This document shows positions 1 through 30,222 of a DNA stretch of 46,037 bases, in pieces (positions within the stretch are counted from its first letter, which is position 1; each line of letters opens with the position of its first letter). The position numbers and the translations under genes are program-made. Below the pieces are notes generated by a model. The model saw only the letters and a list, made by a program, of their open reading frames with translations, did not search any database and was not told where the DNA came from. This stretch comes from a virus, in the IMG/VR virus record IMGVR_UViG_3300028831_000054, positions 1 to 46,037 of that record; one strand, given 5' to 3'.

Positions 1-129
1 ACCAACTACGAGAAGCTGGACAAGGAATACACCCGTATTTTCGATGTCCGCCGCTCGAACAAGGCGTACGAAAAAGTAACCGAGGCAACGGGCATGGGCC
101 TGGCTGCCGTGAAGGCGGAAGGCGCGTCG
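1..129. repeat. Terminal direct repeat, left copy
   Basis: These 129 bases are identical to 45909-46037. The capsid reading frame runs through the join without interruption, so the repeat most simply marks a circular or circularly permuted molecule that was cut open by assembly. It lies inside a gene, which argues against a physical genome end. Confidence 0.97.
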
Positions 130-837
130 ATCATCTACGACGCTCCCAACACCGGACCGGCGACCGTGTTCACGCACGTCACCTACGGCCTCGGCTACAT
201 CATCACCCGCGAGGCGGAAGAGGACAATCAGTACCAGGAAGTGGCGGAAGCAAACGCCGCCGCGTTGCCATGGAGCATGAACGTCTCAAAGGAGATCGTT
301 CACGCCAACATCCTGAACCGCGCCGCGACTGCCGGCTATGTCGGCGGTGATGGCGTCGTGCTGGCGTCGGCTTCGCACCCGACCGCCAACGGAACGCAGT
401 CCAACCTGCTGACTGCGGCGGACCTGTCGGAAGCAGCGCTCGAGGACGCGCTGACCAACATCGCGACGGCGAAGAACAGCGCCGGCCTCCCGATCGCCTT
501 GCGCGCAGTGCGCCTGATCGTGGGTCCGGGGCAGATTTTCAACGCCACCCGCATCCTGGAGTCCGAGGGACGCACTGGGACCGCGAACAACGACCCCAAC
601 GCGATCAAGACGCTGGGCCTCGTTCCCGAGATCGTCATCAACCATTATCTCGACGATCCGGACGCCTGGTATCTCCAGACCAATGCCCCGAACGGCCTGA
701 TCTCGTATCAGCGCCGCGCGCTGGATATTGAGCGTGACGAGGACTTCGACACGGAGAATCGCAAGCACAAGGCCACGGAACGCTATTCGGCGGGCTGGGG
801 CGATTGGCGCGCGGTCTTCGTCAATCTCGGCGCATAG
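1..837 (+). CDS. Major capsid protein, C-terminal part
   Basis: This is the distal 278 codons of the capsid gene; the first 22 codons before the repeat are at 45843-45908, giving a 300-residue protein. It forms the icosahedral shell. The assignment rests on size, on position directly after scaffold-like and decoration-like genes and before the neck genes, and on a general resemblance to Mu gpT-type/HK97-fold capsid proteins. No cleavable delta domain is visible, which fits a separate scaffold. The HK97 fold is inferred. Confidence 0.85.
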   Translation, partial: TNYEKLDKEYTRIFDVRRSNKAYEKVTEATGMGLAAVKAEGASIIYDAPNTGPATVFTHVTYGLGYIITREAEEDNQYQEVAEANAAALPWSMNVSKEIVHANILNRAATAGYVGGDGVVLASASHPTANGTQSNLLTAADLSEAALEDALTNIATAKNSAGLPIALRAVRLIVGPGQIFNATRILESEGRTGTANNDPNAIKTLGLVPEIVINHYLDDPDAWYLQTNAPNGLISYQRRALDIERDEDFDTENRKHKATERYSAGWGDWRAVFVNLGA

Positions 838-841
838 CCTC

Positions 842-864
842 TGACGGAACGGCCGGCGCCGTCA
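842..864 (+). terminator. Hairpin after the capsid gene
   Basis: TGACGG (842-847) pairs with CCGTCA (859-864) around an 11-base GC-rich loop, five bases after the capsid stop codon. There is no following T-run, so it may be an mRNA-stabilising or attenuating stem rather than a true terminator. Confidence 0.3.
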
Positions 865-901
865 AAGACCGGCCACCCTCTTTCATCAAGGAGCCCAGAC
901 A

Positions 902-1381
902 ATGGGAACCACCAATTTCAGCGACCTCGCTTTCGACACGATCAGCGGGGGCGGCATTACGGCGGCGGGCTCTGCGCTCACGCTCACTGCCGCCGACCAC
1001 GGCGGTCGCACGATCCTTCTCAACACTGCGGCCGGCAGCACCGTTACGTTGCCCGCGGCGACAGGATCGGGCGTCAGGTTCCGGTGCGTCGTCTCGGTTA
1101 TCGCCACGTCCAACTCGCACATCATCAAGGTGGCCAATGCCAACGACACGATGACGGGAATGGTCATGTCGATCTCGGACGACGCCGGGTTCCCGGTCAA
1201 GGGCTACACGGCCGACGCTACGGCCGGCGCCGATACCATCACCCTCAACCGCACCACGACTGGCTCGACGGTCAAGGGCGAATGGATCGAGCTCGAGGAC
1301 TATGCCGCCAACAAGTGGGCCGTGCGCGGCTGCATCGCGGCGACGGGCACTGAAGCGACTCCGTTCTCCGCGGCCGTCTAA
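902..1381 (+). CDS. Probable virion decoration/structural protein
   Basis: A 159-residue protein rich in Ala, Gly, Thr and Ser with short alternating beta-strand patterns and no membrane segment or enzyme motif. An AAGGAG site lies a few bases before the ATG. It sits between the capsid gene and the neck genes and has the small beta-rich make-up common in capsid cement or head-associated proteins. The role is inferred from position and composition. Confidence 0.6.
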   Translation: MGTTNFSDLAFDTISGGGITAAGSALTLTAADHGGRTILLNTAAGSTVTLPAATGSGVRFRCVVSVIATSNSHIIKVANANDTMTGMVMSISDDAGFPVKGYTADATAGADTITLNRTTTGSTVKGEWIELEDYAANKWAVRGCIAATGTEATPFSAAV

Positions 1382-1614
1382 TGCCCGCTCCGTGGGGAGA
1401 ATGTCAGAGGTGTGGCTTCATCCGCCGCCTCAACATGCTCTGCCAGGAATGGACCGGACTTCGCGTGTGCAGGGATACATGCCGAGACCCGCGGCCAGCG
1501 GATACTCGTCCGCCTTCGTACAAGCCCGAGGGCGTGCCGCTGCCCAACGCTTCGCCAGCCACCGAGCCGATCTACCGCGAGGACTGGCCCATCGCTGAAG
1601 GCGACGACCTATGA
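1381..1614 (+). CDS. Small cysteine-rich (zinc ribbon-like) head-region protein
   Basis: The 77-residue product has a CxxC pair at residues 8-11 and a C-x3-C pair at 30-34, with another Cys at 21, which looks like a small zinc-binding knuckle. The C-terminal half is Pro- and acid-rich. It overlaps the preceding stop (TAATG) and ends in an ATGA overlap with the next gene, so it is translationally coupled on both sides. Proteins of this kind are often found between capsid and neck genes; their role is not known to me. Confidence 0.7.
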   Translation: MPAPWGECQRCGFIRRLNMLCQEWTGLRVCRDTCRDPRPADTRPPSYKPEGVPLPNASPATEPIYREDWPIAEGDDL

Positions 1615-2297
1615 CGACCTCTGGCGTGACCGAATGGGGGCTGACCGCGGCTGATGTCATTCGCCAGGCACTGGTTGAGCTAGGCGTCCTCAACGGCGGG
1701 GACGAGCCGGAAGCGGTCGAGGAAGCGGACGCTATGCTTCGCCTCAATGCCATGCTCAAGACATGGGGCGGTGAAGCGAACCTGTTCCGCGAAGCCACTG
1801 GTACTTTGGTGATCGTCGGCGGTTCGGGTGCTGGAGCGCTTCCTTCCGAGGTCAGGCAGGTGAACAGCGTCCGGCACGTCTCGAGCCCGACCTACCAACG
1901 CCCACTTCTGGAATGGAACCGCGACCAGTATTTCTCGCTCCCGAACCGGACGGCAGTTGGCAACCCGACCATGTATTACCTGAGCCATACTCCGCTCGTT
2001 TCGGAGATCCGCATCTGGCCTGTCCCTGCAACCGACATCACTCTCCACATCGACTACAGCCGAGCCGTCGAGACCGTGACCGATGTTGAAGAGACGCTGG
2101 ACATCCCGCAGGAATGGCAGGAGGCGGTCATCCTCGGATTGGCAGCCCGTTGTGCATCGATGTTCGGAACGACGAGGCTTGACCCCGGAACGGTCCAGCG
2201 GATCGATGCGGCGTCGGCGGCAATGTATCAGAAGCTGTTGGATCGCGACCGCCCCGACAGCTACTATTTCGAGCCATGGGATAGCTGTTACTCGTGA
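1611..2297 (+). CDS. P22 gp4-like head-to-tail adaptor / DNA stabilisation protein
   Basis: The 228-residue protein begins with a helical segment of the type seen in gp4-like neck adaptors ([14 protein letters not shown], then a run of acidic and Leu residues with 'LNAMLKTW'). In P22, gp4 binds beneath the portal ring after packaging and closes the head. It lies directly upstream of a gp10-like gene, as in P22-type podophages. Length is above P22 gp4 (about 166 aa) but common among gp4-like proteins. Confidence 0.75.
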
Positions 2298-2644
2298 ACA
2301 GTCCCAACGCGCTTTTGCCGCTGATGGCTCCGGTGGCAAAGGTGGGAAACGCGCTCCTTGCGCCCTTGGTGCCGGGTAACATCGACCTGCACAAGCGACC
2401 CGTGGTTCATAACCGCGACGGCACGATTTCCACTGTCCGCTCGATGTCATTCGGCACTGACGATGGTGAGGTTCTGGTCCCTACGGTGAGCGAGGATGGG
2501 CGCATCATGAGCGACCAAGAGGCCATCGACGCATATTATCGGACGGGCAAGCACCTCGGCATTTTCAGGACGCCCGCAGAGGCCACGGCCTATGCTCAAA
2601 TGCTGCATAAGGAGCAGGCCCGTGAATATGGCGGCCGTCATTAG
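2294..2644 (+). CDS. Conserved phage structural-region protein of unknown function
   Basis: A 116-residue protein starting at GTG in a GTGA overlap with the previous stop. Residues about 28-110 carry a recurrent phage module recognisable by [16 protein letters not shown], then a '[15 protein letters not shown]' stretch and 'GKHLGIF'. I know this module from many podophage and siphophage structural or ejection proteins, where it occurs alone or at one end of larger polypeptides. Its biochemical role is not known to me. Confidence 0.7.
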
Positions 2645-4002
2645 TGCCTGATGCCTTGCTCGGCCGCGGTGCCTATCGCCGCGATGCTGGGAACCTTCCC
2701 GAACTGAAGCTCATCAACATGTTCGTCGAGCCTTCGCCGGTAAGTGATGAGGGCGTGACGCTGCTATCTTTCCAAGGTCTGGAATCCTCTGTGACAAGGG
2801 GATCTGGACCGATCAACGGCATCTTCCAGAAGGCCGGCCTGTTCAACGGCGACGTATTCACGGTCTCCGGCACGCACCTTTATCGCGCTGGGACCGACTT
2901 GGGGGCGATCGACGGAACTGGTCCGGTTTCGTGGGCGTCATCGGATATAGAATTAGTCGTTACTCGTGGGGCCAGCGCATGGTCCTACAACGGAACGAAC
3001 CTCGCTGCCGTCACCTTCCCCGACAGCGCCAATGTGACTGCCGTTGCCGGCGTTATCGGTGGGCTGTTCCTTTATGCACGGGCGGGAAGTGGAAGATGGT
3101 ACTGGTCGGCTGTCCTTGATGGCCGGACGGTTGATGCGCTCGACTATGCGACTGCGGAAAGCGCTCCCGATAAACTGCGGGACATCAAGACTGTAGGCGA
3201 CAACGCATTCCTGCTCGGCGAAGACACGATCGAGGTCTGGTACATCACGGGGGAGCTTAACCTTCCTTTCGCGAGGATCAGCCAGCGGACCATCAATGTC
3301 GGGGTTATCGCCACTGGCTGTGCGGTGGAAATGGACAATGCGCTGCACTTCATCGGTAGCGACAAGTCGATCTACCGGATGGCCGAGGTTCACCAGAAGA
3401 TTTCCGATTTCTCGATGGACGAACGCCTGAAGCAGAGCTCGTCCTATTCCTGTTTCACCTTCAGCTGGGAGGGCCACAAATTCCTCGCCGTCAGGTTGAG
3501 CCAAGGAACATGGCTCGGCGACGCTGCAACCTCCTATCAGGGCTGGTACGAAGCCCAGACGTGGGGACTGGCCAACTGGCAGGCTCAATGCGCCGTGACC
3601 CTCGAAACCGGGCCATTGTTTGGGAGCTCGACGACCAACGACGTTCTAGCGTTCGCTGACGATGTCTCACCCCTGTTGAGGCAGTTCCCGGCCTATTTTC
3701 CGGTCAAGGGCGGGTCCGTCCCGGTCGACATGATCGAGGTCGAGGCCAATCCGGGATCGGCTTCCTCTGGAGTGGTCCCGGTCCTTGAAATGCGGTCTTC
3801 TCGGGATCGCGGGAACACGTTCACCAACTGGCGGCCAAGCTCTCTGGGGTTGATGGGTGAATATCGGAAGCGTCCCCGCTGGCGCCGCTGTGGCTATTTC
3901 GACGCACCCGGTCCTTTGTTCGAGTTCCGCACGACCGAAGCAGGGGCTTTGAGGGTTTCTGCTGTCCGGGTCAACGAAAGCGCTGCCGGGCGGGCAAGGT
4001 GA
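2644..4002 (+). CDS. P22 gp10-like packaged-DNA stabilisation (tail accessory) protein
   Basis: A 452-residue protein, close to the roughly 470 residues of P22 gp10. It opens with the family-typical pattern in which the product declares a vector of values ('LLGRGAYRRD', 'LINMFVEPSP'), followed by beta-propeller-like repeats such as 'GLFNGDVFTVSGTHLYR' and 'LHFIGSDKSIYRM'. In P22 this ring joins the gp4 neck to the tail needle and spikes and plugs the head. The start is GTG in a TAGTG overlap and the end is a GTGA overlap with the next gene. Confidence 0.8.
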   Translation: MPDALLGRGAYRRDAGNLPELKLINMFVEPSPVSDEGVTLLSFQGLESSVTRGSGPINGIFQKAGLFNGDVFTVSGTHLYRAGTDLGAIDGTGPVSWASSDIELVVTRGASAWSYNGTNLAAVTFPDSANVTAVAGVIGGLFLYARAGSGRWYWSAVLDGRTVDALDYATAESAPDKLRDIKTVGDNAFLLGEDTIEVWYITGELNLPFARISQRTINVGVIATGCAVEMDNALHFIGSDKSIYRMAEVHQKISDFSMDERLKQSSSYSCFTFSWEGHKFLAVRLSQGTWLGDAATSYQGWYEAQTWGLANWQAQCAVTLETGPLFGSSTTNDVLAFADDVSPLLRQFPAYFPVKGGSVPVDMIEVEANPGSASSGVVPVLEMRSSRDRGNTFTNWRPSSLGLMGEYRKRPRWRRCGYFDAPGPLFEFRTTEAGALRVSAVRVNESAAGRAR

Positions 4003-4859
4003 CGCTCAAGCTTCCACCGCTTCCTTCGGTTCAGCCGGAGTGGGGGCAGTTCCAGGTCTGGTGGCAGCAGATCAAGACGATCCTAGAAACGCAGGAAACC
4101 CTTCAGGACTTGGCTTTGGCGAGCCTCTCGGAAGTTGCTCCAATCACGATCACGGCCGATTACCAGGGAACGGTCGACGCCAACCAGCTTCCCTATGAAG
4201 TCGCGATCAAGCGATTTTACGGGGACACGGACGTAACCACTGACACCGCCTGGTCCGTGGCGACCACGACCGGCGACATTACCGCCTCGATCGGCGCTGC
4301 AACGGGTATCTTGTCCATCAGCGACGTAGGGACCAGCGGCACGCTGACCGTCAGCTCGGATTATAACGGAGTGATCAAGACGCGGCTAGTGCCGGTCACT
4401 CTGACGCTCTCTGCGCCGCCCACCAGCAGCGGCGGTGGAACAGGCGGCGGAACGACTAGCAGCGATACGACCTTCAACAGCATCAGCTCCACTTCCCACA
4501 CTGCGATTTCGGATGAGCTCACGGTGACGGTCAGCAGCAGCGGAACCGTTACCCTCTCGGCATCCCTGCTCGTCAGGACCAACCGTGCCGCTCCTACGGG
4601 GACTTTCCCGGTTAAGGGCAAGTGGCAGTGGTGGGACGGAGCGGCTTGGGTCGATCTTGCGGCCGAGGTCGAAAGCGATCCCGATTGCGAAGTTACGCAG
4701 CCGGAGACGATTTACGAGATCCAGCCCGGCGATCTCACTGTGAACGACAGCAAATCCGGGCTGGGTGCGGGATCAAGCCAGAAGTTCCGGCTCATGGCTC
4801 GCAATACGTCGGGAACGCGAACCATGTCGTTCAGCGGTACGGCATCTGCCGTGCCATGA
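3999..4859 (+). CDS. Tail-region protein with Ig-like/beta-sandwich character
   Basis: The 286-residue product has an amphipathic N-terminal helix (to about residue 45) with 'WGQFQVWWQQIKTIL', then Thr/Ser/Val-rich repeats that look like Ig-type sandwiches. A Gly/Ser/Thr linker around residues 142-155 splits it into two sandwich regions. GTG start overlaps the gp10-like stop. Such proteins often sit on the tail hub or decorate virions. The exact role is unknown. Confidence 0.6.
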   Translation: MTLKLPPLPSVQPEWGQFQVWWQQIKTILETQETLQDLALASLSEVAPITITADYQGTVDANQLPYEVAIKRFYGDTDVTTDTAWSVATTTGDITASIGAATGILSISDVGTSGTLTVSSDYNGVIKTRLVPVTLTLSAPPTSSGGGTGGGTTSSDTTFNSISSTSHTAISDELTVTVSSSGTVTLSASLLVRTNRAAPTGTFPVKGKWQWWDGAAWVDLAAEVESDPDCEVTQPETIYEIQPGDLTVNDSKSGLGAGSSQKFRLMARNTSGTRTMSFSGTASAVP

Positions 4860-5917
4860 GTTTCGTAATTCTCGCGCTTCCGCGGTCACGAACCAAGTGG
4901 CTGTCGCGCTTTCTGACCTATGGCGACTGGAGTTGCAACCATGAGCAATTGCGGCACTTCAGAAGCCTCGACGACGTACGTTTATGGTTCACACAGGACT
5001 GCACCGGAAGCGCCGAAACTGCCGCGGCCCCGTGGTGGCGACTGCTCCGGTCGATAGCACCCGATACGAAGATTGTTTTGGTCCGCCGGCCTGTCGGTGA
5101 AGCGGTCGATAGCCTGATGGCCTTGCCGGGACTGTCGTTCGATCGGGGCACGCTGGAAGATTCGCTGGCCTACCACGACCGCAAGCTAGACCAGATCGAA
5201 GCCCGCGTGCCGTGTTTGTCAGTCAATTATGCCGATCTCGCCAAGATGGAAACATGCCGGGAGGTCTTTGAATATTGCCTGCCATACGATTTTGACGAAG
5301 CTCATTGGCAGCGTTGGGACCGTGAAAACGTGCAATGCCATATGCGGGCTCTAATGCGCTACGCGACGGCTTATGCGCCAGCGATGGAGAAAATGGCTAA
5401 GGTAGCCAAGCATCAGCTTCTTACTACGCTGGGATTGCGTCCGCCCGTTCTTGCCGATGGCATGACCTTGCAGACCGAGGATTTCGAGACTTGGGTTAGG
5501 GACGCACAACCATTGTTCGACGAGCACCTAGTGGTGGTCGGGGAAGCTCCGGGAGAGTGGGAAACGAAAAATCTCCCGTTGATGCGAGCGATCTACGATG
5601 CCGGCTTCATGCAGATCATGACCGCTCGCTGCAACGGCCGCATGTTCGGCTACCTGATGACTCTGATTTCGCCCTCACTGACCTCAGAGCACGTAATCTC
5701 GGCGGCGCACACAACATTCTATGCCTCGCCGGACGCGCCGGGGTTGGGACTCAAATTGCAGAGGGCCGCGGCGAAGGCGCTGAAGGACCGCGGCGTCGAT
5801 CATGTGATGCTTCAGGCCGGTCCGCGAGGCGACGGGCCGCGCTTGTCGACATTGTTCAAAAGGTTGGGCGCCCAGGACGACGGGCAGGTGTTTCGCCTCC
5901 AATTAGAGGATTGTTGA
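4856..5917 (+). CDS. Sulfotransferase-like / GNAT acetyltransferase-like fusion
   Basis: I start this 353-residue protein at ATG 4856, in an ATGA overlap with the previous stop. Residues 1-190 resemble sulfotransferases: 'LPRSRTKWL' at 8-16 matches the 5'-phosphosulfate-binding loop that binds PAPS, and 'VLVRRPVGEAVDSL' at 74-87 matches the 3'-phosphate-binding segment. Residues about 220-350 resemble a GNAT domain: an acidic beta strand, then 'GLGLKLQRAAAKALKDRG' at 296-313 in the place of the acetyl-CoA motif A helix, and a final LFKRLGA. It lies between tail-hub and ejection genes, so it may modify a virion part or a host-surface component. Activity is inferred only from motifs. Confidence 0.7.
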   Translation: MSFVILALPRSRTKWLSRFLTYGDWSCNHEQLRHFRSLDDVRLWFTQDCTGSAETAAAPWWRLLRSIAPDTKIVLVRRPVGEAVDSLMALPGLSFDRGTLEDSLAYHDRKLDQIEARVPCLSVNYADLAKMETCREVFEYCLPYDFDEAHWQRWDRENVQCHMRALMRYATAYAPAMEKMAKVAKHQLLTTLGLRPPVLADGMTLQTEDFETWVRDAQPLFDEHLVVVGEAPGEWETKNLPLMRAIYDAGFMQIMTARCNGRMFGYLMTLISPSLTSEHVISAAHTTFYASPDAPGLGLKLQRAAAKALKDRGVDHVMLQAGPRGDGPRLSTLFKRLGAQDDGQVFRLQLEDC

Positions 5918-5918
5918 T

Positions 5919-6821
5919 ATGGGATTAGGAGCAGCAGTCGGGATTGGCGCGGTAGCCTCCATCGGCGGTGCCGCCCTCTCATCGTCGGCGCAGAAGAAAG
6001 CCGCCAAGAAAGCGGCTAAGGTCGAGGCCGACAACACGGCTGCGAACAATGCGCTGGCGCGTGAGATGTACGCCAACAATGCCTCTCGTCTCGATCCCTA
6101 CAGCGCCAATGGAATGCGGGCTTCCAACGCCCTGACGGACATGCTGCTTGGCCCAGCGCAGCAGCCTTGGCAGCCCGGAACGCCAGGTGGACAGGGCGTG
6201 CCACAAGTCAATCCAGGACCGCCGCAGACCAACCCCCTCTATTCGCAAACTCCTGACACCGAGGACTATGGCCTCCAGCCCGGCCAACATTTGATCGGAC
6301 GACCGCACCTGATCGATCGGCTGTTTCATCGCAGCACGCCCGGAACGCCGACCCCCACTGTGCCTTCGCAGGGCACCGGAGCGCCCGGAACGGGAGCCAT
6401 CCCCTCGGGCCAATCCGCCTTGTCGCCGTGGGATCAGTTCCGCAATTCGACAAATTACCAATGGCGTCTCGACCAGGGCAACAAGGGCATCAACCAAGCC
6501 TATGCCGCGAGAGGAACGCTGCAAAGCGGTGCCGCCCAAAAGGGCCTGCTCGAGTATAATCAGAACTTCGCCGCCAACGAGCTCGGCCGCTACCAGGACT
6601 TGCTCGCTGGCCAGCAAGGCATGGGGCTGACCGCGGCCTCTGCTCTTGCCGGCGTCGGCCAGAACATGGTCGGGCAAGTGACCGCCAACAATAATGCCGC
6701 GGCTTCCGCAGCAGCCAATGCGGCCCTCGCCCGAGGACAGGCTACGTCCAACCTGTATGGCGGGATCGCCTCTGGAATTGGCCAGATCGCCGGCGCGTTC
6801 GGCAGCAGCTACGGCTTCTGA
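5919..6821 (+). CDS. Ejection (internal virion) protein candidate
   Basis: A 300-residue protein with a Gly/Ala-rich hydrophobic N-terminus (residues 2-22, glycine-zipper-like) followed by a Lys/Ala helix, a Pro/Gly/Gln-rich middle, and a C-terminal segment with 'AYAARGTLQSGAAQKGLL' and repeated Ala/Asn/Gly patterns. This layout is typical of DNA-transfer proteins injected by podophages to form a conduit in the host envelope. It heads a run of three such genes. Confidence 0.65.
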   Translation: MGLGAAVGIGAVASIGGAALSSSAQKKAAKKAAKVEADNTAANNALAREMYANNASRLDPYSANGMRASNALTDMLLGPAQQPWQPGTPGGQGVPQVNPGPPQTNPLYSQTPDTEDYGLQPGQHLIGRPHLIDRLFHRSTPGTPTPTVPSQGTGAPGTGAIPSGQSALSPWDQFRNSTNYQWRLDQGNKGINQAYAARGTLQSGAAQKGLLEYNQNFAANELGRYQDLLAGQQGMGLTAASALAGVGQNMVGQVTANNNAAASAAANAALARGQATSNLYGGIASGIGQIAGAFGSSYGF

Positions 6822-6955
6822 TGGCCGACACACCAGAAATCGCCGCTCTCAAGGCGAAGATCAAGGCGCGTCAGAACCAGCCCGGCTTTGCCCAGAACGT
6901 GGCCGACCTGAAAGCGCGCCTAGCCGAGTTGGAGGCTGCCAGTGCCGGAAATTAA
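6821..6955 (+). CDS. 44-residue helical peptide between ejection genes
   Basis: ATG 6821 overlaps the previous stop (TGATG) and the stop at 6953-6955 lies inside the next gene. The product has an extended charged helix with Lys/Ala/Glu heptads and begins MADTPEIAALK. It is tightly coupled on both sides and GC-rich at third positions, which supports a real gene. Function is unknown; similar short helical proteins occur between ejection genes. Confidence 0.65.
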   Translation: MADTPEIAALKAKIKARQNQPGFAQNVADLKARLAELEAASAGN

Positions 6956-8147
6956 CTGGAATTTGCTCCAGCCCGTCGACATCGGCGCCAACTTCCAGAC
7001 CGGCTTCGCAATGGGGCAGCAGCTGGTCCAGAAGGCGAAACTGAAAAGCGCGCTAGCGGCATATTCGCAAGACCCGACTAATCCGGCTGCGGTAAATGCG
7101 CTCGCCGCGGCCTCGCCCGAGTTCGCGTACAAGATGGCATCGACCCGCGCCGAACTCGCCGCGAAAGCGCAAGAGAAGGCGGTGGAGCGCGCACGCATCG
7201 GTGGTATCCTGAAGCAGTACGATACAGACCCCAATGCTGCACGCCGGGCAGCGCTGGAGTCAGGCGACCCAGACCTTGCCAAGCAAATTGGCGAGTTGAA
7301 CGAAGATCAGCGCAAGCGAGCTGCCGAGATGTACAAAGGCGCGGCCCCGATCGCCTACCGCATTCGCCAAACCGCCGATCCTGCCCAGCGCAAGGCCATT
7401 TTCGATCAGGCCCGTCCGATCCTTGAAGCCCAAGGCTGGCCCGCGGACAAGTTAGACAGCTTCGATGTGACCGACGACACCGCCTTGGACGCGGTGATTA
7501 CGTCCGCTCAAACCGTTAATCAGCTCATCGACCAGGGCAAGATCACCTGGCACCAGCAGGGCGAGCAGCCCAGCTTCGCGACCGATGCTATGGGCCATCC
7601 GATCGGCACGCAGAACCCGGCGCGTGTCGCTCAGCCCGCCGCAACTGGCGGGTTTGATGCGGCTGTCGAGCACGTCCTCACCAACGAGGGCGGATACAAC
7701 GCCAGCGACATGAATGGGAAGCCGGTCAACTTCGGTATCAATCAGGGCGCGAACCCGGACATCGATGTCAAAAACATGACCCGCGACCAGGCCAGGCAGG
7801 TTTATCACGACCGCTACTGGGTGCCGAGCGGCGCAGAGGATTTGCCGAGCAACCTACAGGCACCGTACTTCGACGTTTATATCCGCAACCCTAGCGTGGC
7901 GAAGCGTGCGCTGTCGCAATCAGGCGGGGATCCCGTCAAATTCATGGAGATCACCAACGGCTATTTCCGGCACCTGGGCCAGACTCCTGAGGGCCAGAGA
8001 TACGCCAAGGCATGGGCGAACAGGGACAGCCGCAACCTCAGCATCGCCACTGGCGCCCCGCATATCACCAGCAAGGCTGATTTCGACGCTCTGCCCAGCG
8101 GTGCCGAGTTCATTGCGCCGGACGGCACCCACCGGAGGAAGCCCTGA
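6942..8147 (+). CDS. Ejection protein with C-terminal GH108-type lysozyme domain
   Basis: The 401-residue product starts at GTG 6942. Residues 1-210 are helical, as in internal virion proteins. Residues about 238-330 match the glycoside hydrolase 108 pattern: 'FDAAVEHVLTNEGGY' with the presumed catalytic Glu249, then an 'NFGIN' segment and 'YWVP'. A GH108 domain attached to an ejection protein would open the peptidoglycan locally during genome entry, as virion-associated lysozymes do in other podophages. It is distinct from the endolysin at 15179. Confidence 0.8.
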   Translation: MPEINWNLLQPVDIGANFQTGFAMGQQLVQKAKLKSALAAYSQDPTNPAAVNALAAASPEFAYKMASTRAELAAKAQEKAVERARIGGILKQYDTDPNAARRAALESGDPDLAKQIGELNEDQRKRAAEMYKGAAPIAYRIRQTADPAQRKAIFDQARPILEAQGWPADKLDSFDVTDDTALDAVITSAQTVNQLIDQGKITWHQQGEQPSFATDAMGHPIGTQNPARVAQPAATGGFDAAVEHVLTNEGGYNASDMNGKPVNFGINQGANPDIDVKNMTRDQARQVYHDRYWVPSGAEDLPSNLQAPYFDVYIRNPSVAKRALSQSGGDPVKFMEITNGYFRHLGQTPEGQRYAKAWANRDSRNLSIATGAPHITSKADFDALPSGAEFIAPDGTHRRKP

Positions 8148-10981
8148 TGCCTGATAATTGGTGGGAAAGCGCTCCGGTCGTCAGCCCTGCAAGCGATCCC
8201 AGCTTTACGGGCGTCATTCCCGGCGTCCCGAAGCCTAAGGAGCCGAAGTCGCCCGTCTTCGTGCCGAAGGGCGCGACGCAGATGTTCAATCCCAACACCG
8301 GGCAATATGAGGCAATTCCCGGCGCACCGGGCGACGATGAAAAGGACGCGCTCAGCGGCGCGATCCGCGACCTCGGCATCGACGAACTGGTCAACAACGT
8401 CAAGAAGGCTCGCACTGCAGTCAAAGGCGGGTATGCCACCGGAATCACGGGCGCTGTTTTGAGCCACGTACCGGGAACGGATGCGGCCGACTTTCGAGGT
8501 TACATCGACGCCATTCAAGGCGGCGTAATCCTTGAAAAGCTGCAAGCCTTGAAAGAGGCCAGTAAGACCGGAGCTTCCGGCTTGGGTGCGCTTTCCGAAA
8601 AGGAAGGCGACAGGTTGGCCGCCAGCGTCGCGGCGATCAAACCGAACATGAGCGACGAAGCGTTGCAGGAAAGCTTGGACGCGATCGAGAAGCACGCCAA
8701 TTTCCTGCGCGCGGTCGCGGACGGGAAGGATCCGCGCGACCCGAACGTGGCGAAGCAATACGGCCTTGGTGTCGTCCCGGCGGGCATTGATACAAACGGC
8801 GGAGCGGGGGGCGGCGGTGGAGGCGGTGACGGCCCGCCCGGCGCAAAGAACCTCAGCCCCCAGCAGGAGAAGGCGTACAAAGCCTTCCTGAGCGCCAACC
8901 CGAACCCAAGCGGCCCGCAGGTCAAGGCGTTCCTCGAAGGGTTGGGCGTCGGCAATGTCGGTAATGCGGAAGAAATCGCGAAGGCCATCAAGGCGGGCGA
9001 AGGCATCAGCACGGACATCCGCCGTCCCGACATCGAAGCCGCGACCGCATCGAAGACTGAAGACCTGTTGAAGCGTGGCCGTGGCCGCGGTGCCAGCACG
9101 GCCGCAGGAGCACTGGACACCCTCTCTCTAGGTGGTTGGGATGAGTTCCAGGGCGCGCTGGATGCCGTTGAGGGTTCCCTAAAAGGCAAGGGCAGCTTCA
9201 GCGATCTTTACGACATCAACGTCGGGGCCAACCGAGCCGCCAACGCGATCCGGCAGGAAGACCACCCGTGGTTCTACGGCGGTGGGCAACTTGCCGGCGC
9301 GGTCGCGCTGCCGATGGGTGAAGTCGGGACTGTGGGCCAAGCCGCTCTGAAAGCGGGTGGTTATGGTGCGGCTTACGGCTTCGGTAGCGGGACGGACACC
9401 GGCGACCGGTTGGGCCGTGCCGCGATCGGTGGCGCGACAGGAGCCGCCGGTGGGGCGGCATTGAGCGCGCTCGCTCCCTACGTCGCTTCCCGTTTGCCGA
9501 TGCGGGCCGGTGGAGCTTCGCGAGGTATGGCACCTGATGTCGCTGCTGCTGCCGAGCGTCAGCAAGTAAGCCTTCTGCGTCCTATGGTGGACGAAAGCGC
9601 GCTTGCGCCGTTTCAAAAGCTGGCCGGAACAGAAAACGCAGGCCCGATTATTGAGCAGGGCGGCAACCGCGTACTCGGGGAGATTGAGGCTGCTACAGGC
9701 AGGCTCGGGCAGGGTGGCAACGCAAGCAATCGTGAGGCGCAGGGCGAAGCGCTGCGGCAGATTGCAAAGGAAGTCCAGGCAGCCAACCGGGAAGGCACCA
9801 GCGCCGCATACAAAGCCGCCGAGCAACTGCAACCGGATGCGATGGTCGAGCCCGCGACAATGCGGCAGCGGGTCGACGCCAAGCTGGAGCAGCTTGCTCT
9901 CCGGCCTTCGCAGAACAGAGCCGAAATCCTGGCTCTTAAACGTTACCGTGCCGACCTCGATAAGCCGTTGCCCTTGAAGGAAGTCCGCAACATGCGGACG
10001 GACGCCTACGACAACGTGTATGGCGGAGCTACCTCAAGAAGCTCGGAGCAGAAGCGCGCTGATCGGTTCATGATGGGCGTGATCGACGCCGCCAACACGG
10101 ATATTGAAGCATCGCTTACTCCGGAAGCGCTGGCGGCGTACAAGGCCGCAGATGCGCTTCATCGAGAAAACAAGACGCTCTACAAGGAGGCGTTCAAGCC
10201 GTTGTTCGGGGCCGACGAGGGCCAACTCGACAAGTTATCGGCTGAGCAAATCCACGACAAATTCAAGCGAGCGGTGAACACCAACGGCCGCGCAATCGCT
10301 GCTTTCCATCGTCGGATGCCTCTGGAGCAAAGCCGCGACTTCGCTGCGACCATTGCCGAAAGGCTTGGACGGAGCGCTTCCGACGCTCCTTTCGACGCAC
10401 AACTGTTCCTCAACCAAACCAAGGATTTCAGCCCGAGCGCGATCAAGACGCTGTTTGGACCGGGGGGCGAACAGACCATTGCCGATCTTCGGCTCCTGTC
10501 GCGCAAATTGCTCGACACCGGCGCGAGCCAGACCGGTGTTGCTACTCGCGCCGGTTATCTCGAGCGGCAGGGGTGGAGGCAGGCTGCTCGGGGATTTCTG
10601 AGTGGCATCACCGGCATCTTCAAGAGTGCTGGAGGCGTGGGTGCTGCCGGCGCAAGCGGTGCCGCGGGGTATGCGGGCGGGGGAGTGACCGGAATGACGG
10701 TCGCAGCAGGAACCGCTGCGACCATTGCCGGCGGGAGAGAGGTCGGCCGCGTTCTTAGTGCTCGCGCCATGATTAATCCACGGGTGGCACGCTGGCTGGC
10801 GCAGACCGCTGACGTGAGTTCGGCGAAAGCAGCACAGGAGCAAGTGCGCCGGTTGAGTGTCATCATCTCACGGGAACCTGCAATCGCGAACGATCTTCAG
10901 CCCCTTCACGACATGCTTACTCAACGGCTTACTCAGCCGTTAGCCGCCCAGCCCCAGACCGAAGGTAACGACCAGCAATAA
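8147..10981 (+). CDS. Large ejection (internal virion) protein
   Basis: A 944-residue protein coupled by a TGATG overlap to the GH108 gene. It has a Pro-rich N-terminus, helical segments, a Gly-rich linker near residues 223-233, a central Gly/Ala-rich hydrophobic block (about residues 385-445), coiled-coil segments and another Gly/Ala-rich hydrophobic block near 820-865. The hydrophobic glycine-rich blocks suggest membrane insertion on ejection. It is the longest protein of the genome, as is usual for the largest podophage ejection protein. Confidence 0.75.
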   Translation: MPDNWWESAPVVSPASDPSFTGVIPGVPKPKEPKSPVFVPKGATQMFNPNTGQYEAIPGAPGDDEKDALSGAIRDLGIDELVNNVKKARTAVKGGYATGITGAVLSHVPGTDAADFRGYIDAIQGGVILEKLQALKEASKTGASGLGALSEKEGDRLAASVAAIKPNMSDEALQESLDAIEKHANFLRAVADGKDPRDPNVAKQYGLGVVPAGIDTNGGAGGGGGGGDGPPGAKNLSPQQEKAYKAFLSANPNPSGPQVKAFLEGLGVGNVGNAEEIAKAIKAGEGISTDIRRPDIEAATASKTEDLLKRGRGRGASTAAGALDTLSLGGWDEFQGALDAVEGSLKGKGSFSDLYDINVGANRAANAIRQEDHPWFYGGGQLAGAVALPMGEVGTVGQAALKAGGYGAAYGFGSGTDTGDRLGRAAIGGATGAAGGAALSALAPYVASRLPMRAGGASRGMAPDVAAAAERQQVSLLRPMVDESALAPFQKLAGTENAGPIIEQGGNRVLGEIEAATGRLGQGGNASNREAQGEALRQIAKEVQAANREGTSAAYKAAEQLQPDAMVEPATMRQRVDAKLEQLALRPSQNRAEILALKRYRADLDKPLPLKEVRNMRTDAYDNVYGGATSRSSEQKRADRFMMGVIDAANTDIEASLTPEALAAYKAADALHRENKTLYKEAFKPLFGADEGQLDKLSAEQIHDKFKRAVNTNGRAIAAFHRRMPLEQSRDFAATIAERLGRSASDAPFDAQLFLNQTKDFSPSAIKTLFGPGGEQTIADLRLLSRKLLDTGASQTGVATRAGYLERQGWRQAARGFLSGITGIFKSAGGVGAAGASGAAGYAGGGVTGMTVAAGTAATIAGGREVGRVLSARAMINPRVARWLAQTADVSSAKAAQEQVRRLSVIISREPAIANDLQPLHDMLTQRLTQPLAAQPQTEGNDQQ

Positions 10982-10984
10982 GGT

Positions 10985-11004
10985 CATGGCGCGGAAGCGC
11001 CATG
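10985..11004 (+). terminator. Perfect hairpin after the ejection operon
   Basis: CATGGCGC (10985-10992) and GCGCCATG (10997-11004) form a perfect 8-bp stem closed by a GGAA loop, a GNRA-type tetraloop. It begins four bases after the ejection-protein stop. No T-run follows, so a role in mRNA processing or stability is as likely as termination. Confidence 0.45.
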
Positions 11005-11081
11005 GGGACGGGCACCAGACGACTATCGCCCCAAGCAACAACAGCAGTTGGCCTATCCGCACGTCTGCGAGCCTAGCTTAA
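10986..11081 (+). CDS. Possible 31-residue ORF before the tailspike
   Basis: An ATG at 10986 with a modest AAGG four bases upstream opens 31 codons beginning MARKRHGDG. The ORF overlaps the stable hairpin and has no recognisable motif. It may be chance; the 115-base gap otherwise holds only the hairpin and the tailspike ribosome site. Confidence 0.25.
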   Translation: MARKRHGDGHQTTIAPSNNSSWPIRTSASLA

Positions 11082-11096
11082 TTTCGAGGAAAATCC

Positions 11097-13325
11097 ATGC
11101 CCGAAATGTTCGTCATGCCCTTTCGTCCGGCTTACGACAGCAATGGCGCGACCATACCGGGCGCGCAGGCATGGTTCACTTTGTCTGGCACGAACGATCC
11201 TAGCCCTGTTTACACGACAAGCTCCCTCACGACCCCGCGCACCAACCCGATCGTAGCTAACGGCGTAGGCAAGTTCCCCCGGTCCTATCTCGACCCCGCG
11301 ATCACAGGGGGAGCGGGGTATCGGGTGCGGATCTACAGCGCTGATGCCGTGGTCGGTGTCGATACGCCAATCGAGGAATATGATCCCTATACCGGAGCGG
11401 AGCAGGGATCGCAGGGCGTGGCGGGACCAGGCGGTGGGGGGGAGGTGGCCACTCGAACCACCTTGTCAGCGATCGTCGGCCAAGCCGAGGGCGCGACGCA
11501 TTACCTCACGGAGCTCGGCCGCGAAGGCATGTTCGTATGGGATAGCTCAGACTTGAGCGATGAAGTTGTGGCGGATTCCCAGCAGGGCATCTACGTTGCT
11601 TCCGACTTGGATCCAACCGGCGTCCAAGGTGCGTGGGTTCGCCAAGTCGACGGTGCCTACAACGTCAAGTGGTTCGGCGCGACTGGCGATGGTTCGACCG
11701 ATGACGGCGCGGCTGTCCTTGCTGCTCTAGCCTATCTCGGGGCCGCGTCGCAAAGCGGCTTTGGCTACAGCTCGTCCACTTCCGAACTGTTCTTTCCCAA
11801 GGGGGATTACTTCCTCGGGACCAATACCCTCGAACTCACCTACACGACCATCCTGACTGGCGAAAGCACGGGCGGGGCCGGCGGCATGGCCACCCGCCTG
11901 CGCTGGTCGGCCAACACGACCGGCATTCGTACCCAGCGGGCCAACACGACCGGAGCAACGGCGACACAGGCATCTTCTGGGCATGGCGGCGACGGGTCGA
12001 TCATCCGTAACCTGTCGCTTGTCGGGGCCTTCACGACCACTGAAGGCGAATATCACGGCATCCAGCTCCGAGCGGTCGCCGCGATTTACGACTGCTACAT
12101 TCTAGGCTTCCAAGGCGACGGCATCTACATCAAGGCGACCATCGGTGGTGGCGCTGGGTCGGAAGGGGCGTGCAACCTTTTCGAGATCGATCACGTCTTC
12201 GTACAGGAGTGCCGTAACGGCCTTTACGTCGAGGGCGCCGATACCAACGCCGGAAACGCAAGGTCTTTTTCGGCGATCGCTTGTCGTCAGTGGGGTATCT
12301 GGGACAAGTCGTTCCTTGGTAACACCTATGCCGGTTGCCACATGGCCTCGAATGCCAAGAACGCGATCAACAACGGCTCCTCGCTAGCCGCATCCTTCGT
12401 CACCCAAGGAGGCAATCGCTACACAGTCATCAGGGGTCAGGAAACCGGAGCCTCGACCAACGCACCTACGGGGGCTGCCACAAACAATACTTGGTGGATC
12501 TGGGTTGAGGCGGGGGGCGCGACCACAGGCATTCCGGCTTGGGGAAGCGGGATGACCGTTCGTGCTGGCGGGGCCTATCTTGTGGAAGGACTTAGCAACA
12601 CGACCGCTTTGCTCAACCCTTATGCCGAAATCGACCAATATTCGCAGTTCGACCAGAACGTCAGCATCTTTGGTCATTCGTTCTTGCAGGGGCACATCAA
12701 GGTTTCCGGAGGGGTGGCAACCGCCAATCGCAGCGCGTCAATGGGAGCTTCGCTGAATGGCTACCGTTTCTACGGCAACACTGAGATCCGGGGCAGTATT
12801 AACGGAACTGCGGTGGAGAACTTCTTCGGCCCACAAACCGGGACTGCGGACGGCATAACCACTGGCTATACAACCAACACCTACCATGCGTACCGGGCAG
12901 TTATTTACGGTGGTGCAGAACTTGGCTCGATCACCTTCCGCGCCACCCTCGGTATTGATTACGATGCCAACGGCGGGGCGATGTGGCACCGCTTCAAGCT
13001 GGCCGGCACCGACAAGGCGACCTTCGACGCCAACGGGTGGAATCTCGTTACGGGCCTCGTTTACAAGATCAACTCTATTCAAGTCGTGGGCGCTCGCAAG
13101 ACCGGCTGGGCGGTTGACACCGGAACTGCCAAGAGAACGGCGAATGCGACCTATGCCGCCGGGACGACGCTGACTTTCAGCGGGACTTACGTTCAGGCCG
13201 AGCACACGGCTGTTGGGACACGTCTCGCGGCAGTCGAATCAGCGCTTCAGGATGCTACTCAAACGATCAAGGCGCTGAAGGACGACTTGCATGGCACCGC
13301 GGGACACGGGCTGATCGGAACCTAA
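11097..13325 (+). CDS. Tailspike with beta-helix (pectate-lyase-like) domain
   Basis: The 742-residue protein has an N-terminal virion-binding part (about residues 1-115, 'MPFRPAYDSNG', 'IVANGVGKFP'), a Gly-rich linker, and from about residue 190 the motif 'VKWFGATGDGSTDDGAAV' that opens parallel beta-helix pectate-lyase-type domains. The C-terminus ends in a short coiled coil. It should bind and possibly degrade a surface polysaccharide and so set host range. GAGGA lies before the ATG. Its stop overlaps that of the convergent gene on the minus strand. Confidence 0.85.
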   Translation: MPEMFVMPFRPAYDSNGATIPGAQAWFTLSGTNDPSPVYTTSSLTTPRTNPIVANGVGKFPRSYLDPAITGGAGYRVRIYSADAVVGVDTPIEEYDPYTGAEQGSQGVAGPGGGGEVATRTTLSAIVGQAEGATHYLTELGREGMFVWDSSDLSDEVVADSQQGIYVASDLDPTGVQGAWVRQVDGAYNVKWFGATGDGSTDDGAAVLAALAYLGAASQSGFGYSSSTSELFFPKGDYFLGTNTLELTYTTILTGESTGGAGGMATRLRWSANTTGIRTQRANTTGATATQASSGHGGDGSIIRNLSLVGAFTTTEGEYHGIQLRAVAAIYDCYILGFQGDGIYIKATIGGGAGSEGACNLFEIDHVFVQECRNGLYVEGADTNAGNARSFSAIACRQWGIWDKSFLGNTYAGCHMASNAKNAINNGSSLAASFVTQGGNRYTVIRGQETGASTNAPTGAATNNTWWIWVEAGGATTGIPAWGSGMTVRAGGAYLVEGLSNTTALLNPYAEIDQYSQFDQNVSIFGHSFLQGHIKVSGGVATANRSASMGASLNGYRFYGNTEIRGSINGTAVENFFGPQTGTADGITTGYTTNTYHAYRAVIYGGAELGSITFRATLGIDYDANGGAMWHRFKLAGTDKATFDANGWNLVTGLVYKINSIQVVGARKTGWAVDTGTAKRTANATYAAGTTLTFSGTYVQAEHTAVGTRLAAVESALQDATQTIKALKDDLHGTAGHGLIGT

Positions 13326-29286: not shown

Positions 29287-29883
29287 TTAGAGTGGCGTGC
29301 CTTTCCATACGATCCGCCCAATGACGCGGATCGGCTCTTCGCCCATGAAGAGAGGCTGGTGGGTGTCGTTCGAGGAGGCCGGCTCGAACCGGGCAGGATT
29401 GGACTTGTAGAGCTTGACCTGGGTTTCGTGCTCTTCGTTTTCGATCAGATAGACCCGATCGTTATAGAGCTGGCTCTGGTCCGGATCGACGACGATAAAG
29501 GAACCATCCTCGATCATGTTGTCCATGCTGTCACCGCGGAGCTCGACCGCGAAGGCGCGCTCCCCGGCCAGACCGGACGGAAGAGGCATTTGTCTCAAAG
29601 GAAGACGGACCGCCTCGCGCCAATTTCCCGCCGAGCTGATACCGATGACGGGAACAAAAGCAACGGCTCGCTCCGTCTCAATGCCGAGGCGCTTATAGAT
29701 GTAAGACGCCTCGTGGACTTTGACTTGCCGTGTGCCCGCCAGCAAGTTTGAAACCGCGCTTTGCGGAAGGCCCATTTCTTCCGCAAGTTTAACTTGTGTT
29801 ACGCCCGACGCGCGCATTCGTTCCCTAACCAATGCGATATCGAAGGGACTGTCTGAATTTAGGTCGATTGCACCCGGCACCAT
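29287..29883 (-). CDS. cI: CI-type repressor with LexA/S24 self-cleavage domain
   Basis: 198 residues from ATG 29883; earlier in-frame starts would place the start in the operator, so I reject them. Residues 15-68 hold an XRE helix-turn-helix ('GVTQVKLAEEMGLPQSAVSN'). The C-terminal domain has a probable Ala85-Gly86 cleavage site ('SSAGNW'), Ser119 in 'GDSM' and Lys157 in 'TQVKLY', all spaced as in LexA. RecA-stimulated cleavage would make the prophage SOS-inducible. No strong ribosome site is seen. Confidence 0.88.
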   Translation of the reverse strand: MVPGAIDLNSDSPFDIALVRERMRASGVTQVKLAEEMGLPQSAVSNLLAGTRQVKVHEASYIYKRLGIETERAVAFVPVIGISSAGNWREAVRLPLRQMPLPSGLAGERAFAVELRGDSMDNMIEDGSFIVVDPDQSQLYNDRVYLIENEEHETQVKLYKSNPARFEPASSNDTHQPLFMGEEPIRVIGRIVWKGTPL

Positions 29884-29947
29884 CGCTGTATGCCATGACG
29901 GTATCGGAGGCGCGCCCCGCAAATTCGGATATTTGGGGCTTGAACGA

Positions 29948-29964
29948 TATCCGCTCATCGGATA
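29948..29964. promoter_or_regulatory. Operator-like site OR1
   Basis: TATCCGCTCATCGGATA is a perfect TATCCG-n5-CGGATA palindrome between cI and the Cro-like gene. A half-site CGGATA also lies at 29926-29931. A TTGAAC at 29940-29945 may be the -35 of the rightward promoter, but no good -10 follows. Confidence 0.65.
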
Positions 29965-29973
29965 AGTGGAAGC

Positions 29974-30222
29974 ATGAGCATCGTTCAGCGCACCATCGAC
30001 GCCTTCGCCGGCCATCGCGAGCGCGCCGAATTTGCACGTGATCTCGGGGTGCCCCCGCAGACTGTCCAGGACTGGATCGGCAAGGGCAACATTCCCCATT
30101 GGAGGCGTCAGGCGATTATCGACTTGGCGCGCAAGAAAGGCGTCATTCTGGACGCCGAGATTGCTGCATTCCTCACCTCATCGACCTCCGCCAAGGAATG
30201 GCGGTGGGGCATCGCAGCTTGA
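29974..30222 (+). CDS. Cro-like HTH regulator
   Basis: 82 residues from ATG 29974. Residues about 5-45 form a helix-turn-helix ('AEFARDLGVPPQTVQDWIGK') like Cro/YdaS-type proteins, followed by an 'AIIDLARKKG' helix. It diverges from cI across the operators, so it likely competes for them. Confidence 0.8.
   Translation: MSIVQRTIDAFAGHRERAEFARDLGVPPQTVQDWIGKGNIPHWRRQAIIDLARKKGVILDAEIAAFLTSSTSAKEWRWGIAA

Follow-up and report, generated by a model that had tools for sequence, protein, structure and literature searches.

A two-domain gene beside the ejection genes

What would a protein that joins a sulfotransferase-like domain to a GNAT-like domain do beside the DNA ejection genes of a phage? We addressed this question in a virus record of 46,037 bases (the window, meaning the whole stretch of DNA that was analysed), which carries terminase and portal genes. 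The open reading frame of the fusion starts with an ATG at 4856 and is uninterrupted up to the stop codon ending at 5917, and the opposite strand of this stretch has many stops in the displayed frame (features are collected in Table 1). As the ATG overlaps the stop of the preceding gene and the next gene follows right after the stop of the fusion, the fusion is probably read together with the Hc3, tail and ejection genes. The phage is a P22-type podophage with a gene for a CI-like repressor, and is probably temperate. Named phages included no close DNA relative of window positions 1-12000, the query had no match among plasmids, and a PAPS-reductase gene, sought in the window, was not found (0 of 1 record).

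Table 1. Features of the fusion gene and of its surroundings in the window.
Feature	Position	Strand	Description and basis
Sulfotransferase-GNAT fusion gene	4856..5917	+	353 aa; ORF, PHROG/Pfam family matches
N domain, PAPS-sulfotransferase-type fold	4856..5437	+	residues 1-194; phrog_10855, model, structure comparison
Predicted 5′-phosphosulfate binding loop LPRSRTKWL	4877..4903	+	residues 8-16; P9, R10, S11, R12 and W15 in 46/46 rows
H29-E30, of which E/D30 presumably corresponds to the catalytic Glu of TPST	4940..4945	+	H in 46/46 rows; E in 24 and D in 22 of 46
R78 to S86, predicted 3′-phosphate binding pair	5087..5113	+	R78 in 46/46, S86 in 45/46 rows
C domain, GNAT fold	5453..5914	+	residues 200-353; phrog_1249, model, structure comparison
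G-x-G and following helix, degenerate GNAT motif A	5741..5788	+	residues 296-311
Head closure protein Hc3, P22 gp10-like	2644..4002	+	phrog_578, E 7e-63; upstream of the fusion
Putative tail protein	3999..4859	+	phrog_14098, E 4e-4; 3′ end overlaps the fusion start
DNA ejection protein, P22 gp7-like	5919..6821	+	phrog_598, E 1.9e-23; immediately downstream
CI-like repressor	29287-30099	-	phrog_4, E 1.7e-29

Ahead of Hc3, window positions 2294-2644 encode a 116-aa product. Over 91 aa it shares 80% identity with an internal segment of a protein of 430 aa that is encoded two genes past the fusion in a relative (L001:8319-9611). The 116-aa stretch was not found in the lysin-like protein of the window itself and, judged by this similarity, the product would be a mobile domain.

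The N-terminal half has a sulfotransferase-type fold

PAPS-dependent sulfotransferases contact the 5′-phosphosulfate through a loop of the form P-[KR]-S-x-[TS]-x-W and the 3′-phosphate through an R...S pair. The sequence-only reading had located two such motifs in the fusion, at residues 8-16 and 74-87, and both are present there; the second reads KIVLVRRPVGEAVDSL. We take the loop and the R...S pair to have these roles here, and the acidic residue at position 30 to correspond to the catalytic Glu of TPST. Conservation was evaluated in 46 rows, a set that omits four near copies and the siphophage rows L003-L005. Position 30 is acidic and position 13 is T or S in 46/46 of these rows, and the Gly of the loop is replaced by Arg (R12) in all 46 (window positions 4886-4894 encode residues 11-13). 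In the siphophage proteins L003 and L004, which are not among the 46 rows, loop position 12 is G or A, and R12 is a family signature that holds within the 46-row set and not beyond it. These two relatives of the sulfotransferase half (L003:4992-5534 and L004:4998-5549) are annotated in Pseudomonas and Xanthomonas siphophages as 'hydrolase' or 'nucleotide triphosphate hydrolase', an annotation that is probably wrong.

Family searches gave matches of different strength. The family phrog_10855, which carries the name 'hydrolase', aligned with residues 2-156 of the query (E 1.3e-9) and matched 38/38 distinct full-length homologues, and Pfam Sulfotransfer_3 scored 21 bits with the query, below its 27-bit cut-off, and matched 29/38 distinct homologues at E<=0.1 (best E 2.9e-7). 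When the sequences of solved structures were searched with the query alone, the sole match was an esterase (E 0.33), and a search with the N-terminal profile returned TPST1 at a non-significant E of 0.3-0.5; the alignment with TPST1 agrees with the loop and extends up to residue 29.

The N half modelled alone reached pLDDT 94.6 and pTM 0.90, and a Foldseek comparison with the PDB placed sulfotransferases at all of ranks 1-19 (best E 5e-5), the first kinase being at rank 20. With VIA-align the highest score was Z 12.9, to a bacterial sulfotransferase domain (4gox), followed by TPST1/2 (Z 12-12.7) and NDST1 (Z 11), and P-loop kinases appeared from Z 11.2 (gluconate kinase). That the kinase score comes close to the best one, that the PHROG is named 'hydrolase' and that phage annotations read 'nucleotide triphosphate hydrolase' would fit an N half that is a P-loop kinase or hydrolase rather than a sulfotransferase. 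We consider this very improbable: the Walker A pattern G-x4-G-K-[ST] is missing from the N half, which carries instead LPRSR[TS]xW and an R...S pair spaced eight residues apart, motifs that we understand as those of sulfotransferases, and both the leading Foldseek ranks and the Sulfotransfer_3 matches point the same way. The rank order of the structure comparisons and the motifs thus support an N half with a fold of the P-loop kind and of sulfotransferase type, with a predicted PAPS site.

The C-terminal half has a GNAT fold with a degenerate motif A

The C half of the query matched phrog_1249, 'acetyltransferase' (E 0.0015), as did 33/38 distinct homologues at E<=0.01, and Pfam Acetyltransf_1 matched 8/38 at E<=0.1. 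The model of the whole protein had pLDDT 91.0 and pTM 0.66, and its C half (residues 198-351) aligned by VIA with GNATs up to Z 16.2 (rmsd 2.2, 131 aligned), RimI and NatA subunits included. On these models the GNAT fold of the C half is sure. Fold prediction of both halves, the check proposed with the sequence-only reading, returned a sulfotransferase-type N half and a GNAT C half, neither with a different fold, and family searches, models and structure comparison agree that the two domains are in one protein.

The motif A helix, proposed earlier at residues 296-313, appears in the AF2 model as a helix at 297-311 after G296-x-G298; as aligned, G298 is kept in 38/38 and G296 in 37/38 rows. Canonical GNAT motif A reads Q/R-x-x-G-x-G/A. 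In the acetyl-CoA loop of the query the first Q/R is replaced, and divergent members of the family carry a different loop. This departure from the canonical loop makes acetyl transfer less certain than the fold, and acyl transfer by the C half is likely and not secure. The residues of the predicted PAPS site in the N half, by comparison, are intact in the family.

The fusion forms a family in which both halves are under selection

Two alignment-based scans, of which the best 80 of 110 and the best 80 of 97 matches were taken, provided relatives of the fusion; 53/108 different sequences were retained (92% clusters, 3′-cut ORFs excluded), 38 of full length and 15 not. Viral contigs hold at least 38 distinct full-length fusions, which share 33-73% identity. 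A scan of genome contigs with the single protein gave no match, and a scan with the alignment gave 8 loci; the relatives in genome records L164-L169, which include Azospirillum rugosum and two Magnetospirillum, align over nearly their full length. In the class of Azospirillum, 385 genomes yielded one full-length match, in the centre genome itself, and partial matches in 7 others; in the class of Nevskia, 369 genomes likewise yielded one in the centre genome itself, and 2 others were partial. None of the 50 BFVD matches listed reads as the same two-domain fusion; most span one half, and for the two that extend over 424 and 409 columns the rmsd is 13-21 and TM about 0.3.

Median dN/dS was 0.11 for the N half and 0.10 for the C half in 21 pairs, and between the distance matrices of the N and the C half the correlation was r 0.91 (38 rows). 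By these sequence comparisons purifying selection acts on the N half and on the C half, and the two diverge together. They bear on the idea that the GNAT fold serves an active sulfotransferase as a non-catalytic scaffold, the C half being an assembly chaperone of the kind of T7 gp13 or P22 gp14 that docks the N half on ejection proteins. The degenerate acetyl-CoA loop, of which the second Gly alone is invariant, would suit such a scaffold, as would the better conservation of the sulfotransferase residues and the Pfam label of T7 gp13 as a probable scaffold protein. We nevertheless hold it to be rather unlikely, as seven residues of the GNAT half are invariant across 38 rows, its dN/dS is as low as that of the N half, and in structure comparison it strongly matches active acetyltransferases.

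The slot of the fusion is that of gene 14 in P22 and gene 13 in T7

In P22 the gene order is 10 (Hc3), 26, 14 and 7 (ejection), and in T7 it is 12, 13 and 14; the fusion occupies the place of P22 gene 14 or T7 gene 13, ahead of the first ejection gene. Among representatives with enough flank, Hc3 was detected upstream in 20/35 and an ejection protein directly downstream in 27/37. In 7/10 of the downstream misses there is an Ala-rich ORF starting MGL(G/A)A, which from its sequence looks like the same kind of protein as the ejection protein. The location first given for the gene, between neck/tail-hub and ejection genes, is thus borne out, and the term 'tail operon' is better replaced by neck/ejection cassette. 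One relative (L146) has a different gene downstream of the fusion; this large ORF (L146:4110-5855) reads, from its sequence, like a portal protein and not like an ejection protein.

A GNAT alone is found in the slot of two Zobellviridae and of Burkholderia phage JC1. Podophages with a GNAT in this slot (phrog_1249 in Zobellviridae, cobaviruses, phrog_4470 in JC1) have it between head-closure/tail and ejection genes, and the cobavirus GNAT is likened to T7 gp13 in PMC6775973. With hhalign, the phrog_1249 GNAT from Vibrio phage 275E43-1 matched the C half of the fusion at 97.9%. Unlike the fusion, the slot GNATs are without a sulfotransferase half, and that of JC1 is in a different PHROG and does not align with the C half. 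P22 gp14 (phrog_651, DUF2824) and T7 gp13 (phrog_308) share the slot, and their relatives adjoin the same sulfotransferase family elsewhere, but sequence comparison detects no similarity between them and the GNAT half.

A search for direct homology by profile comparison of the GNAT half with P22 gp14, T7 gp13, the JC1 GNAT and the protein upstream of the L059 sulfotransferase gave no match. The loci L059, L057 and L074, described below, are tied to the gp13 and gp14 families by PHROG matches instead.

Two genes past its slot GNAT, within the ejection cassette, JC1 encodes gp65 (L224:3868-4590), a member of the PAPS-reductase family (PF01507, E 6e-12), which brings a second sulfur-cofactor family into this neighbourhood. 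In phage CSP3, PMC10269572 describes a GNAT close to a PAPS reductase.

The sulfotransferase changes partners within the slot

In the window type the fused sulfotransferase precedes the GNAT. In L171 the two are unfused, with a GNAT gene overlapping the end of the sulfotransferase gene and an ejection gene following (whole ORFs of 185 and 155 aa). In L059 and L058 the sulfotransferase comes immediately after a T7-gp13-type gene, in L057, a single metagenomic contig, it shares one reading frame with a gp13-type domain that precedes it, and in L074 it comes immediately after a P22-gp14-type gene. The gp14-like protein of L074 matches phrog_651 and, weakly, the acyltransferase PHROGs 4470 and 1249; a sequence link between the gp14 family and the GNAT half would run through this protein alone and is indirect. 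No partner was found for the sulfotransferase in the slot of L070, L073 and L085. In L055 an orphan stretch of about 110 aa (L055:4553-4888) replaces the GNAT half; searches of named phages and of Pfam gave no match to this stretch, and a search of viral contigs gave none but itself.

A tree of 50 rows places L055 within the fusion clade, beside L049 (99/93), and pairs L057 with L059 (99/96) in a position adjoining the fusion clade that is not firm (89/55); by its starred branches the fusion label must have changed at least 3 times. The same sulfotransferase thus repeatedly has a partner of gp13, gp14 or GNAT type, and not always at the same end. This partner swapping in the slot is our main argument that the modules serve one process, and suggests that both would act in one step of ejection-cassette assembly.

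The same domain occurs as a stand-alone sulfotransferase in early regions of Pseudomonas siphophages, and elsewhere. It is therefore not bound to ejection proteins as such, and the siphophage relatives imply that it can do other work. A separate group of stand-alone sulfotransferase-like genes is formed by L075-L084; in one of them, L077:1101-2171, the ORF ahead of the gene resembles, in our reading, a lysozyme.

A possible modification of ejection proteins during assembly

Our proposal, which we hold tentatively and put somewhat short of an even chance, is that the fusion is a two-domain transferase at the place of, and probably extending, the GNAT-like factor that serves morphogenesis in the ejection cassette of podophages, and that it modifies ejection or tail proteins. 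The fusion would be made late, together with the neck and ejection proteins; its N domain would bind PAPS of the host and transfer sulfate, and its C domain would bind acyl-CoA and transfer an acyl group. The most likely targets would be the neighbouring ejection or tail proteins before packaging, and the enzyme itself would probably not be a stable virion component. We infer in this proposal that both halves are catalytic, that they have a common substrate and that this substrate is an ejection protein. The hosts are able to make PAPS: a gene for APS kinase, the maker of PAPS, was found in 6/6 host genomes, yet also in 11/14 controls.

Published virion proteomes of phages with other proteins in the slot speak to the place of action. 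The lists accessible for SH1, SH3 and SH4 include internal proteins B, C and D and not A, the gp13 counterpart (PMC4925675; the ORF number of the slot protein of SH1 was inferred by us), that of phiPsa17 includes gp14-16 and not gp13 in the portion available (PMC4517105), and that of JC1 includes gp61 and gp64 and not the GNAT gp63, likewise in the available text (PMC9144972). Such lists can miss small proteins, and all five come from phages without the fusion. As the slot protein is missing from the virion lists of five phages in which its neighbours are listed, we favour, by analogy, a slot protein that is a non-virion modifying factor; a protein kept in the cassette and absent from virions should act on the products of the cassette. 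An injected effector, that is, a fusion that is an internal virion protein entering the host with the DNA and acting there, would account for the adjoining ejection genes and for the name of PHROG 308, internal virion protein, but the same virion lists make it quite improbable.

The modified molecule could also belong to the host: a protein, glycan or small molecule, modified late or in the lysogen, with transcription shut-off, surface change or counter-defence as the outcome. Enzymes of this kind have parallels, since the phage GNAT Rac is required for cleavage of the alpha subunit of host RNA polymerase (accessible part of PMC7552054), relatives of the sulfotransferase lie in siphophage early regions, and stand-alone phage sulfotransferases are counted among metabolic genes in the available text of PMC10580990. 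We see a host target as unlikely, given that the ejection-adjacent slot is conserved in highly diverged phages, that the position of the gene is late and that the partner swaps remain within the slot. Of the targets named by the sequence-only reading (a virion protein, host polysaccharide or a host factor), the slot, the partner swaps and the proteomes of other phages thus favour virion or ejection proteins, modified during assembly.

Relation to known proteins

Stand-alone proteins of phrog_10855, such as PaMx28 gp68 and Ab19 gp37, have the same N domain at about 26% identity, with a loop LPRS[GA]TTW and the H-D pair. They differ from the fusions in having no GNAT half, in their location in the early/replication region of siphophages and in the G or A of the loop, where the fusions have R. 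TPST1/2 are among the best fold matches of the N half and have a PSB loop PRSGTT, but they are about 15% identical to it and lack a second domain of the kind of the fusion; we do not file the fusion as a tyrosylprotein sulfotransferase, as the likeness is one of predicted fold at about 15% identity. NDST1, an N-deacetylase/N-sulfotransferase with a fold match at Z 11, also joins a sulfotransferase to an acetyl-handling domain, but there the second domain is a deacetylase and has a different fold, and the substrate of NDST1 is heparan sulfate. Rac of phiKMV-type podophages is a podophage GNAT with a demonstrated effect, on host transcription (PMC7552054, in the part accessible), but it is encoded at the start of the structural cluster, outside the ejection slot, and has no sulfotransferase half.

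In the available portions of the literature, the role of phage sulfotransferases is stated as unclear (PMC10580990) and that of the GNAT-like protein beside ejection genes is merely suggested (PMC6775973). PMC13299392 mentions a sulfotransferase solely among replication genes, and PMC10386132 does not mention acetyl, GNAT or sulfo. We found no report in the open-access literature of the fusion or of an association between sulfotransferase and GNAT. Sulfotransferases of phages and GNATs of the slot are each known on their own, and by these searches of open-access papers their fusion appears to be new.

Through one protein with both domains, in a conserved slot and with swapped partners, these two questions meet in a single hypothesis that can be tested: that phage assembly includes a chemical modification of the ejection apparatus. 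A stronger version of our proposal is that podophages sulfate and acylate their own DNA-ejection proteins in assembly, by a pair of enzymes fused in both orders and re-partnered several times, with the old morphogenesis factors P22 gp14 and T7 gp13 serving the same step. As a whole we regard this version as unlikely. If it were true, a bacterial virus would have a system of post-translational sulfation.
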